Virus record (IMG/VR): IMGVR_UViG_3300047510_003155
Coordinates: 1-64,000 of that record
Reading direction: 5' to 3' (one strand)
Length of the DNA stretch: 64,000 bases
Source of the DNA: a virus
In this document: positions 21,707-26,201 of the stretch, piece after piece
How the letters are laid out: every line of letters begins with the position of its first letter
Numbering within the stretch: position 1 is the stretch's first letter
The notes under the pieces: model-generated
The model's database searches: none
Told to the model about the DNA's origin: nothing
What the model saw: only the letters and a program-made list of their open reading frames with translations
Made by a program: the position numbers and the translations under genes

Positions 21707-22408
21707 ATGAAAATAGATCTCCATAATTTCTTTTTACACTACGATCCTAAAAATCCAAAGCACGTTGCAGCAGTAGAGCAGTTTGAAAAGGATTTGGAAT
21801 CTAAAAATCCAGACTTGCTTGATGATGAAACGAGTTGGATAAAAATTTATAGATCAAAAGTAGAACCAGTAGTTCCAGGAGTTCTTAATGTTCCTTGGTT
21901 CCCACAAACAGATAATTACAGAGATGCACAAAGAACCTGTAATTCATCTTCTTGTGCGATGTGTCTAGAGTATTTCAAACCAGGCACACTTCAAGGAGCA
22001 ACAGGCGATGATGCCTATATTCAAAAGGTATTCGCAATTGGTGATACGACTGATCACACCGTCCAAACAAAAGTTTTGGAAGGTTATGGTATTAAGTCAC
22101 GATTTGTTTACAATCTTTCTTTTGCTGATCTTGATCGTGAGCTTGCCGCTGGGAGACCTGTCGTTATCGGGATTCTTCATCGCGGTTCTTTATCTGCACC
22201 TACTGGCGGGCACTTACTTGTAGTGATCGGTAAGAAAGGTGATGATTATGTTGTAAATGATCCTTATGGTTCTCTCAACGATGGATATACGGGACCAGTT
22301 ACAAATGGTAAAGGTGCTGTATATAAGAGATCAGATCTAATGCAACGATGGTTGGATAAAGGAAAAGATAGAACTGGATGGGGTCGTATTTTTGATGCAA
22401 AAAAGTAA
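21707..22408 (+). CDS. C39-like cysteine peptidase (endolysin part)
   Basis: 233 aa. Peptidase_C39-like core: NVPWFPQTDN (Gln67 oxyanion), RTCNSSSCAMCLEYF with candidate nucleophile Cys78 or Cys83, His169 in GGHLLVVIGKKGDDYVV and Asp185 in VNDPYGS. Such domains cleave peptides, including cell-wall cross-bridges. The end reads GCA-AAA-AAG-TAA, where A-AAA-AAG is a -1 slippery heptamer next to the stop, and the next frame encodes a lysozyme without its own start codon. So a 390-aa peptidase-muramidase fusion is predicted besides the 233-aa form. Late promoter upstream. Confidence 0.82.
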   Translation: MKIDLHNFFLHYDPKNPKHVAAVEQFEKDLESKNPDLLDDETSWIKIYRSKVEPVVPGVLNVPWFPQTDNYRDAQRTCNSSSCAMCLEYFKPGTLQGATGDDAYIQKVFAIGDTTDHTVQTKVLEGYGIKSRFVYNLSFADLDRELAAGRPVVIGILHRGSLSAPTGGHLLVVIGKKGDDYVVNDPYGSLNDGYTGPVTNGKGAVYKRSDLMQRWLDKGKDRTGWGRIFDAKK

Positions 22409-22441
22409 TTAGTTCTATTCCAGTTAAAGGGGTAGAACTGA
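22399..22441 (+). promoter_or_regulatory. Predicted -1 programmed frameshift signal
   Basis: Slippery A-AAA-AAG at 22399-22405 in the zero frame, stop TAA at 22406-22408, then after 5 nt an 11-bp stem: 22411-22421 (AGTTCTATTCC) with 22429-22439 (GGGGTAGAACT), two G-U pairs, 7-nt loop; two more pairs extend it to 22409/22441. Heptamer type equals that of E. coli dnaX. Slippage places ribosomes in the lysozyme frame. Confidence 0.72.
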
Positions 22442-22878
22442 TAAAAGTATTTGAAGGTTGTAAATTAAGAGCATATCCAGATCCTTTGACTGGAGGTGCT
22501 CCAATCACAATAGGTTGGGGTTCTACTAGCAGAAAAGATGGAACTGGATTTATAATGGGTAATACCATTACACAACAGGAAGCAGATGATCTGTTAATGT
22601 TTGATATTGAAACAAAATTTATTCCTGCACTACAAAAAATCCCTTATTGGAATGAGATGAATGAAAATCAACAAGGAGCACTTCTTTCTTTTGCTTATAA
22701 TCTTGGTGCTAATTTCTACGGGGGTCCCAATTTTAATACCATAACTAGAGTATTAAAGAATAAGGAATGGGATAAAGTTCCTGATGCTTTATATCTTTAC
22801 CGAAATCCTGGAAGTAATGTAGAGGCAGGATTAGCAAGAAGAAGAAAAGCAGAGGGTGATCTTTGGAAAAGAACTTAA
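22405..22878 (+). CDS. GH24 lysozyme domain, read by -1 frameshift
   Basis: 157 residues in the -1 frame. The family pattern is clear: GVELIKVFEGCKLRAYPDP with the catalytic Glu in FEG, ITIGWGSTSR, NQQGALLSFAYNLGA and GLARRRKAEGDLW. It is a muramidase like T4 e/lambdoid phage lysozymes. No ATG or GTG precedes the catalytic Glu in this frame (it opens at 22396 after a TGA); a TTG at 22486 would be too late. Weak alternatives are ATT 22408 or CTG 22438, the latter after GGGG. Frameshift from the C39 gene is the best explanation; a lost A in the A6 run is the competing one. Confidence 0.8.
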   Translation, partial: VISSIPVKGVELIKVFEGCKLRAYPDPLTGGAPITIGWGSTSRKDGTGFIMGNTITQQEADDLLMFDIETKFIPALQKIPYWNEMNENQQGALLSFAYNLGANFYGGPNFNTITRVLKNKEWDKVPDALYLYRNPGSNVEAGLARRRKAEGDLWKRT

Positions 22879-22915: not shown

Positions 22916-24160
22916 ATGGATGAATTTCAACTTGAAGAACTGCAAAAGTCAAATCAGCAAATACAGGATACTATCCCTTATGATCCTAATGCTGCATCTA
23001 GGTATCCTAATGGATATACACCTGTAGGAATTGGTGAAGATAATACTCCAGTCGAACAGGTTGATCCTGTAAACGTTCCTGAAGTAGAAGTAACATCTCC
23101 AATATTAAACGACATTATTCCTCAGGACGTTTATGGGTCTTCTGGGGACAATATTTCCTTTGCGAATAGAAATATTCCAGAGATTGAAAATACAAGAATA
23201 GATTCAACAACTCCTATAAGAAACGCAAATGTCGTTATTAGCAGTTTACCTGGGAATAATATTGTTCCTGATAGTTCTAGCAATAGTGATGGACCACCTA
23301 TCGAAGAAGATGTGGTAGATCCTCCAGTTGATCCAGAGCCTCCTGTAGACCCCCCAGTTGATCCTGAAGATCCACCACCACCTCCACCACCTGAAGAACC
23401 TGAAGATCCAGAGGAACCTGAAGAACCTGAAGAACCTGAAGATCCAGAGGAACCTGAAGAACCTGAAGAACCTGAAGATCCAGAGGAACCAGAGGAACCA
23501 GAAGATCCTGAAGATCCTGAAGATCCAGAGGAACCTGAAGAACCTGAAGATCCAGAGGAACCTGAAGATCCAGAGGAACCTGAAGAACCTGAAGATCCAG
23601 AGGAACCTGAAGAACCTGAAGATCCAGAGGAACCTGGTGGGGGTAATCCTGGTAATGATAAAGATGTAGGCAATTCCCCTTGGGATGGTGAGACAGGAGC
23701 ATCAGACAATCCAGGCAAAGGTAATCACCAAGATGGACAAGATCCCGAACCAAACCAACCTCCAGGCGATTCAAAGAATGATGGAGGACAAAATAATGAT
23801 CCAAAAGATCCTCCTGGTAATGGAGGAAATGCTGGAAATGGTGGAGGAAAACCTGATGAACAGCAAAATAATGGATGGGGGAACGGAGATGATGATGCTC
23901 CAGGTAATTCCCTCAATCACAATAACGCTGAAAATGATCAGTCTCCAAGTGAACATTATGATGATTTTGTTGGAAGATTCTTAGAAGAAAATCCAGTAGA
24001 TCTAAATGTTATTAATACTCACGAAATTCCTAACGAGCATCCTCTTGATAATTTTGATACTCATATTCCTGATGTTGTATTAGATAATCTCCCAGAGGTT
24101 CACTTCGATCACTTTGATCTTCCTACAGATCATTTCGATCACGGACCTCATAGTATGTAA
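22916..24160 (+). CDS. Low-complexity Glu-Pro-Asp repeat protein
   Basis: 414 aa. Ordered-looking N-terminus (about 1-120), a Pro-rich linker, then about 80 residues of EEPEDPEEPEEP-type repeats, then a Gly/Asn/Asp-rich stretch and a C-terminus rich in His and Asp (about 345-414; HFDHFDLPTDHFDH). Extremely acidic; may bind divalent cations or form an extended stalk. A late promoter suggests a virion or lysis role. Its 3' end overlaps the convergent SNase gene by 13 nt. Family unknown. Confidence 0.75.
   Translation: MDEFQLEELQKSNQQIQDTIPYDPNAASRYPNGYTPVGIGEDNTPVEQVDPVNVPEVEVTSPILNDIIPQDVYGSSGDNISFANRNIPEIENTRIDSTTPIRNANVVISSLPGNNIVPDSSSNSDGPPIEEDVVDPPVDPEPPVDPPVDPEDPPPPPPPEEPEDPEEPEEPEEPEDPEEPEEPEEPEDPEEPEEPEDPEDPEDPEEPEEPEDPEEPEDPEEPEEPEDPEEPEEPEDPEEPGGGNPGNDKDVGNSPWDGETGASDNPGKGNHQDGQDPEPNQPPGDSKNDGGQNNDPKDPPGNGGNAGNGGGKPDEQQNNGWGNGDDDAPGNSLNHNNAENDQSPSEHYDDFVGRFLEENPVDLNVINTHEIPNEHPLDNFDTHIPDVVLDNLPEVHFDHFDLPTDHFDHGPHSM
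23391..23636 (+). repeat. In-frame EPE/EPD coding repeat tract
   Basis: Tandem units of GAACCTGAAGATCCAGAG and the variant GAACCTGAAGAACCTGAA. Unit order varies, as expected from slippage or recombination. It keeps the reading frame, so length can vary between relatives. Confidence 0.9.
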
Positions 24161-25121: not shown

Positions 25122-26201
25122 ATGACTGCTACAATTTCACAACAACGTTCTACTTCCACTTGGGATCAATTCTGCGAGTGGGTTACTTCAACGAACAACC
25201 GCCTCTATGTTGGTTGGTTCGGTACTCTGATGATTCCAACGCTGCTTGCCGCAACGATTTGTTTCATCGTCGCCTTCATTGCTGCACCTCCTGTAGACAT
25301 TGACGGCATCCGTGAACCAGTTGCTGGTTCGCTAATGTACGGAAACAACATCATTTCAGGTGCTGTTATTCCTTCAAGCAACGCCATTGGCTTGCACTTT
25401 TATCCCATCTGGGAAGCTGCCTCTCTTGATGAGTGGCTTTACAACGGTGGTCCTTACCAACTGGTAGTCTTCCACTTCCTCATCGGTATTTTCTCTTATA
25501 TGGGACGTGAGTGGGAACTCTCCTATCGTCTTGGTATGCGTCCTTGGATTTGCGTAGCATATTCTGCACCTGTTGCTGCTGCTACTGCTGTTTTCCTGGT
25601 TTATCCTTTCGGTCAAGGTTCTTTCTCTGATGGTATGCCTCTGGGTATCTCTGGTACTTTCAACTATATGCTTGTGTTCCAGGCAGAGCATAACATTCTG
25701 ATGCACCCCTTCCATATGCTTGGAGTTGCTGGTGTCTTCGGTGGTTCTCTGTTCTCTGCGATGCACGGTTCACTGGTGACTTCCTCGCTGGTTCGTGAAA
25801 CCACTGAGAATGAGTCGCAGAACTATGGTTACAAGTTCGGTCAAGAAGAAGAGACTTATAACATCGTTGCCGCACACGGTTACTTTGGTCGTCTGATCTT
25901 CCAATATGCTTCGTTCAACAACTCTCGTTCGCTGCACTTCTTCCTCGCTGCCTGGCCCGTTGTAGGCATCTGGTTCACTGCTCTTGGTGTTTCTACGATG
26001 GCTTTCAATTTGAATGGTTTCAACTTTAATCAAAGTATTGTTGATAGTCAGGGTAAGGTAATCAATACCTGGGCTGATGTACTCAACCGTGCCAATCTCG
26101 GGATGGAGGTGTCCCATGAGAGAAACGCACATAACTTTCCATTGGATCTTGCAAGCGTAGAAGCAACTCCTGTTGCTCTTACCGCTCCTACAATCGGTTG
26201 A
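25122..26201 (+). CDS. psbA: Photosystem II D1 protein
   Basis: 359 aa, full length, uninterrupted (no intron). Carries pheophytin/quinone-binding segments, the Tyr161 region (FPIG...), and C-terminal manganese ligands in [17 protein letters not shown] with the CtpA cleavage after Ala; the tail [14 protein letters not shown] is removed. Replaces host D1 lost to photodamage. Codons are host-like and GC richer. Followed by a terminator then an endonuclease gene. Confidence 0.99.

Follow-up and report, generated by a model that had tools for sequence, protein, structure and literature searches.

A predicted dnaX-type −1 ribosomal frameshifting cassette in a family of phage endolysin genes

The stretch of DNA analysed here (the window) comprises 64,000 nucleotides and is part of a virus record of 95,912 bases. 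At 25122–26201 it contains a gene that we recognised by eye and take to be psbA-like, and 80 cyanobacterial genome loci match this gene at 87–94% identity. Upstream of it, a C39-like peptidase and a GH24 lysozyme are encoded in overlapping frames, and the features of this locus are as follows.

21707–22408, plus strand: open reading frame of the C39-like peptidase in the zero frame, 233 aa, the short product (Pfam Peptidase_C39_2)
22399–22405, plus strand: slip heptamer A_AAA_AAG, in phase with the peptidase reading frame (the same heptamer in 99 of the 132 sampled −1-overlap junctions)
22406–22408, plus strand: TAA, the zero-frame stop codon of the peptidase (from the sequence)
22408–22421, plus strand: 5′ arm of a putative stimulatory hairpin (folding; p ≤ 0.01 under a synonymous-codon null)
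22429–22442, plus strand: 3′ arm of the putative stimulatory hairpin (folding; covariation in relatives)
22405–22878, plus strand: GH24 lysozyme as it would be read in −1 past the slip site, 157 aa and stop (Pfam Phage_lysozyme)

The peptidase reading frame ends in GAT GCA AAA AAG TAA, and the heptamer thus stands in the zero frame directly before the stop codon, as the earlier note had described. The peptidase was matched by Pfam PF13529 (Peptidase_C39_2) with an E-value of 4.4e-13, and a search of PDB sequences returned no match at E 0.01. Its predicted model, of moderate confidence (pLDDT 68, lowest near the cysteines), found the C39-like peptidase 3erv as the best PDB fold match (E 1.9e-4), with a TM score of only 0.35–0.40. 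The residues C78, C83, H169 and D185 were invariant among 24 chosen sequences, and the conserved Cys, His and Asp presumably constitute a papain-like site. The open lysozyme frame spans 22396–22878 and hence reaches upstream into the slip site, again in agreement with the earlier note, and Pfam PF00959 (Phage_lysozyme) matched residues 18–153 of this −1 frame ORF (E 1.2e-22). The earlier claim that this frame has no ATG or GTG before its FEG codons was borne out and extends to TTG, which is also missing between the slip site and FEG; the first TTG is found at 22486, inside the domain. A −1 slip at the heptamer would join 233 residues to 157 and yield a product of 390 aa, the lengths computed here being those given before. 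The match of the family phrog_10457 (95-aa “endolysin”) to the lysozyme at 22405–22878 is confined to its C-terminal half, and this family may represent truncated annotations arising from an unrecognised frameshift. Directly 3′ of the lysin lies an ORF of 414 aa (22916–24160) with long acidic repeats of the PEDPEEPE type.

As a bare string the heptamer occurs 47 times in the window against 42.5 expected, and the heptamer alone was therefore rejected as evidence, its frequency being at the level of chance. The combination of the heptamer with its phase, the stop codon, a hairpin and the missing start, recurring across relatives, amounts to more than chance. The window hairpin has 14 bp, including three G-U pairs, and a loop of 7 nt. 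The earlier note had placed it at 22409–22441; the loop was as described, but the stem is one base pair longer (22408–22442), and the spacer of 5 nt given for it holds for the inner 11 bp of the stem and not for the full 14-bp helix. The region 22397–22470 folds at −18.0 kcal/mol (z −4.65), and none of 200 dinucleotide shuffles was as good. When the lysozyme amino acids were kept and synonymous codons redrawn, the window hairpin had p ≤ 0.01, as the window was absent from the rows listed above 0.01. E. coli dnaX has, in addition, a Shine-Dalgarno-like stimulator upstream of its slip site, an element that is not mandatory for the class, whereas no GGAG or AGGA was read in the 15 bases upstream of the window heptamer (22384–22398), and such a stimulator was rejected for this locus. 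The G-rich codons further upstream encode a conserved GWGR motif, which is present in loci with coupled starts too.

The relatives were collected in four IMG/VR scans, each of which contributed its 80 best loci, out of 569, 466, 354 and 423 relatives, and the sample consequently leans towards the queries. To these were added the window itself and ten loci taken from records of named phages, and the window's own copy (L011) was removed. Of 324 loci classified, 3 were truncated and 1 was without a peptidase match; removal of 136 loci, nearly all duplicates, left 188 distinct junctions. These comprised 132 with a lysozyme in −1 overlap, 26 fused, 6 with separate genes and 24 without an adjacent lysozyme. 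A canonical slip heptamer was found in 103 of the 132 overlap junctions, as A_AAA_AAG in 99, T_TTT_TTT in 3 and A_AAA_AAA in 1. In each of the remaining 29, the stop codon of the peptidase is overlapped by an ordinary start, and no sampled −1-overlap junction lacked both the heptamer and the overlapping start (0/132; Fisher p 2e-19). The lysozyme start overlaps the stop in 13 of the 103 heptamer junctions as well; 90 are without such a start and 51 are without any ATG, GTG or TTG. Among the 99 A_AAA_AAG junctions, 49 are startless, 38 have a start elsewhere and 12 have a start overlapping the stop. Together with one T_TTT_TTT junction, 39 heptamer loci have a start elsewhere, and in 6 of these it falls within 20 nt after the stop. 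The lysine pair at the slip site is AAA-AAG in 99 cases and AAA-AAA in 1, against a background AAA:AAG ratio of 61:39. In the comparison that the earlier note had proposed, heptamer, stem and missing start are thus on the whole kept in relatives, but the 29 junctions with an ordinary start and no heptamer indicate that the design is common in the family and not universal.

A blind scan of IMG/VR was made with a DNA pattern consisting of the peptidase tail and the heptamer only, and at least 119 stretches matched. Among the matches listed (80 loci), 78 with new identifiers were examined; the peptidase was found upstream in 76 of the 78, and all 76 of these peptidase-linked loci carried a lysozyme in the −1 frame, the other 2 having neither. 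These contigs largely overlap the earlier set, and the independent part of the scan is the selection made without the lysozyme. Conversely, the heptamer was present in only 1 of the 30 junctions with a separate or no adjacent lysozyme, L164, which is taken up below. On a FastTree phylogeny of the 188 peptidases, made with their tails trimmed, 24 undirected changes are required between the frameshift loci, whether or not a start overlaps the stop, and all other loci, and coupled loci are interspersed among frameshift loci; many forks of this tree have low support, 74 of its 180 inner branches being open.

The hairpin was evaluated with the synonymous-codon null in 95 distinct downstream regions from the 103 heptamer junctions. 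Among the 83 regions without an overlapping start, 72 had p ≤ 0.05 and 45 had p ≤ 0.01, with a median folding energy of −15.8 compared with −8.6 for the nulls. The downstream structure of a frameshift cassette was thus found save in 11 of these 83 regions, where the hairpin was not significant (e.g. L303, p 0.91). The 12 regions that have both the heptamer and an overlapping start gave 3 at p ≤ 0.05, of which 2 at 0.01, and the 28 coupled-start controls gave 2 at p ≤ 0.05 and none at p ≤ 0.01. A tally over 42 clusters, biased upward because the best-scoring member represents each cluster, gave 28 at p ≤ 0.05 and 15 at p ≤ 0.01 among 36 clusters without an overlapping start, and 3 at p ≤ 0.05 among the 6 with one. 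When the helix was extended as far as possible, the spacer between heptamer and helix was 2–8 nt in 91 of the 95 regions; stimulatory RNA structures generally begin 5–8 nt 3′ of the slip site (PMC4066793). Using the heptamer end and the LIK codons as anchors that are independent of pairing (L149 has no anchor), the best helix fell into one of three registers one codon apart in 82 of 94 regions (41, 22 and 19) and elsewhere in 12. Permutation of the 3′ arms within a register, restricted to loci at least 80% paired (37, 21 and 19 of the 83), a selection that favours the observed value, matched the observed pairing in 0 of 2000 trials in registers 3 and 6 and in 21 of 2000 in register 0. An arm swap over all 83 loci, made without selection for pairing, brought the helix score down from a mean of 24.0 to one of 13.4. 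The predicted hairpin pairing therefore covaries in the relatives, in three registers, and still other hairpins were found in L046 and L304 and, by eye, in L544.

These observations also bear on the alternative that the lysozyme is a separate protein made from a weak or non-standard start in or near the overlap, with the hairpin aiding re-initiation after the peptidase stop; the candidates would be ATT at 22408 or CTG at 22438 in the window and TTG or GTG in other loci. Starts coupled to the stop do exist in 29 of the 132 junctions and in 13 heptamer junctions too, and a Shine-Dalgarno-like stretch of 6 nt precedes some near-start codon in 9 of the 51 startless junctions. In 36 of those 51, the match before any near-start codon is 3 nt or less, whereas the peptidase starts show a match of at least 4 nt in 64 of 132. 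The missing match is nevertheless weak evidence, because the coupled ATGs mostly lack one as well (at least 4 nt in 3 of 29), and a weak site would accordingly be inconspicuous. Speaking against an internal start are the in-phase heptamer in every startless junction, the choice of AAA-AAG by 99 to 1, and the strong hairpins, which accompany the heptamer where no start overlaps the stop (72 of 83) and not the coupled starts (2 of 28). Furthermore, the linkers between heptamer and FEG vary in length only in threes, in a class that the reading frame helped to define and in which the shortest values stem from a default anchor. On balance we consider an internal start improbable.

The same arrangement was found in named phages. 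The isolate S-PM2 has the layout of the window, GCA AAA AAG TAA followed by a startless lysozyme in the −1 frame, and the isolate S-CAM7 has GTT TTT TTT CCA CAG TAG, that is T_TTT_TTT, with a startless −1 lysozyme and a hairpin at p 0.013. Their existing lysin annotations are fragments of 72 aa (S-PM2) and 90 aa (S-CAM7), and the conserved frame begins earlier. Taken together, the conserved heptamer, a hairpin whose sequence changes but mostly keeps its pairing, the missing start and the shared layout of S-PM2 support the frameshift interpretation first put forward in the earlier note. Other phages are wired differently: S-SRM01 keeps A_AAA_AAG and has an ATG overlapping the stop, and DSL-LC02 and DSL-LC03 have peptidase and lysozyme as separate genes. 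In ACG-2014f, one fused ORF still contains A_AAA_AAG, followed by TCTGA, and translation shifted to −1 would terminate one codon further on; this junction is matched by 43 phage records, near-copies of each other, of which 42 share at least 99% identity with it and one 97.8%. Judged from these sequences, the roles are reversed in the ACG-2014f group and in contig L193, with the fusion in frame and slippage predicted to truncate it, and this reversed form occurs in two places on the peptidase tree. Helices of the reversed loci had p-values of 0.010 (L007), 0.013 (L109), 0.003 (L116), 0.13 (L112, not significant) and 0.013 (L193); L193 is a single contig, and a single-base error is possible there.

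Two further loci, L131 and L188, have seven As, the peptidase and lysozyme being fused in frame with the hairpin kept, and these may be real in-frame alleles or errors. They could be read, like the run of eight Ts in S-CAM7, as favouring transcriptional slippage, in which a seventh A would be added to the run in some mRNA and the fusion made by normal translation. The run is, however, A6 closed by G in 99 of 100 lysine pairs, the transcriptional slippage described in bacteria takes place on runs of 9 As or Ts (PMC5009743), and the position of the hairpin, a few bases 3′ of the heptamer, suits a stimulator acting on the ribosome; we thus regard slippage of the polymerase as very unlikely. That the split arose through faulty sequencing or assembly of what is really one continuous ORF, or that the gene is broken, can be practically discounted, since, error-prone as homopolymers are and with seven-A alleles at hand in L131 and L188, the same site is found in the isolate S-PM2 and in 99 distinct sampled junctions, the hairpins covary and the lysozyme is conserved (60–72% identity among seven relatives).

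In one lineage the signal is followed by a different enzyme. The −1 frame of L164 encodes a GH19-like endolysin (PHROGs phrog_181, 2e-39), a naming that relies on PHROGs endolysin/chitinase families and on likeness by eye to the C-terminal part of MA01, the Pfam GH19 match being weak (E 0.015, below the cut-off). Near the junction this frame contains neither ATG nor GTG, with one TTG at 30 nt, and the slip site is followed by a 10-bp hairpin with further outer pairs (z −4.44). The junction is common to four contigs of one lineage, its own included (L452–L455). In the nearest glycosidase relatives (L456–L459), the open frames are long and have ATG codons well upstream, and their fetched loci contained no peptidase of this kind; the hydrolase behind the slip site has thus apparently been exchanged. 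It appears from these sequences that a GH19-like endolysin replaced the lysozyme behind the same signal in this lineage.

We conclude with high confidence that the locus is a dnaX-type programmed −1 ribosomal frameshifting cassette in a phage endolysin gene, as far as comparison of sequences can tell. In the proposed mechanism, ribosomes translating the peptidase would reach A_AAA_AAG beside the stop codon, where the hairpin a few bases 3′ would hold them. Some would terminate and release the peptidase of 233 aa, and others would slip back by one base, the tRNA-Lys re-pairing from AAA/AAG to AAA/AAA, and continue into the lysozyme to give a peptidase-muramidase of 390 aa. Both the slipping of the ribosome itself and the importance of the two products at a set ratio are what we infer from these patterns. 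According to PMC5009743, A_AAA_AAG is slippery in E. coli on the condition that there is a sole tRNA-Lys. One tRNA-Lys, with anticodon UUU, was found in Synechococcus WH 5701, a single proxy host that may differ from the host of the window phage, by an Rfam tRNA search (47 places) and ARAGORN, which read no tRNA at 1 of the 47 places. A tRNA-Lys pattern search of six cyanobacterial genomes, that of WH 5701 included, had returned nothing for either anticodon, and its result was discarded because every genome needs a tRNA-Lys and the search pattern was judged unfit.

The cassette resembles E. coli dnaX (gamma/tau) in the A_AAA_AAG heptamer, the hairpin 3′ of it, a stop codon at the site or one codon further on, and short and long products that share their N-terminal part, although dnaX is the gene of a polymerase subunit and the cassette a phage lysis gene. 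In the ACG-2014f group and L193 the likeness to E. coli dnaX extends to the fusion being in frame and slippage truncating, whereas in most members slippage would make the long product, as in a rarer form of dnaX. This role reversal of dnaX has been described, and proposed for a few bacteria, and goes with slippage near 50% (PMC5009743); a high efficiency would thus be a natural guess here too, the role reversal being the best indication of efficiency available. We further considered that what selection maintains is the peptidase to peptidase-muramidase ratio and not a particular wiring, the frameshift being a standing control of endolysin composition in cyanophages, a reading to which we give an even chance of being right. 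It would have the two products reached via two slip sequences, several unrelated hairpins, two unrelated hydrolases and both slip directions. Coupled start, frameshift, in-frame fusion and reversed frameshift within one gene family make it testable why phages retain two forms of lysin.

Among known phage systems, the tail assembly chaperone genes G/GT of lambda are also a gene pair with a −1 overlap and a slip heptamer, and AAAAAAG was predicted as the slip site in the tail chaperone of the Burkholderia phage AH2 (PMC3483164). G/GT encodes a tail assembly chaperone, whereas the window products match C39_2 and GH24, and no relation between the proteins was seen. The earlier note knew of no phage endolysin made by frameshifting, which was too strong. 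One paper counts lysins among genes “known to contain a frameshift” (PMC10885494, refs 35–42), a statement that apparently rests on ref 35 (Shearman et al. 1994). For Gp1-LysA of mycobacteriophage Ms6, frameshifting at the GTGA where gp1 and lysA overlap has been suggested as a possible means by which the larger endolysin is expressed (PMC3111421). There a chaperone gene precedes one endolysin, and the passages seen mention neither a slip heptamer nor a hairpin, both of which the present cassette has. These two statements mean that the general idea is not new; no endolysin made by the present design was found in the literature, in a search mostly outside subscription journals. The mechanism is known, and its use by a conserved endolysin family seems to be new; it is a new setting, with unusual evolutionary plasticity, for a known mechanism. 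Multi-part endolysins are known to arise via separate genes, internal starts or processing. If the reading is true, a conserved frameshift would be a further route to them, able to fix stoichiometry at the ribosome, and the lysin annotations of S-PM2 and S-CAM7 would need correcting.

The domains are also joined in continuous ORFs, in contrast to the split frames of the window. Among cyanophages, ACG-2014f relatives and S-CREM1 have C39 and lysozyme in one ORF, and MA01 has C39 with a different C-terminal part, GH19-like by eye, in which Pfam finds no GH19 domain. In S-CREM1 (L003, 2959–4140) the order of lysozyme and C39 peptidase is opposite to that of other lysozyme fusions. Plain fusions without the heptamer have helices at p ~0.01 in 6 of 18 cases (L094, L096, L098, L100, L108 and L115), which fall into two groups of relatives, and the plain fusion L105 has the heptamer but neither a helix (p 0.19) nor a −1 stop close by; heptamer and helix are thus not strictly tied. 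L098, L100, L108 and L115 contain GAA AAG AAG (the tetramer A_AAG) with an 11-bp helix downstream at p ~0.01, and this tetramer is possibly a weaker slip site or a remnant. In S-CRM01 (L009, 2827–4136), the lysozyme domain is split over two ORFs that meet at TAATG, the second with extra sequence, which may reflect re-initiation or a sequencing error; no slip heptamer could be seen at its junction, and it was set aside as a frameshift case. The 24 of 188 junctions without a downstream lysozyme (e.g. L044, L253 and L286) include L003 and L010, which are fused otherwise, L164 with its GH19-like −1 frame, and a few other coupled ORFs (e.g. L084 and L137). In the rest, the peptidase stands without an adjacent lysozyme and without the heptamer, a hint that the peptidase can suffice on its own.
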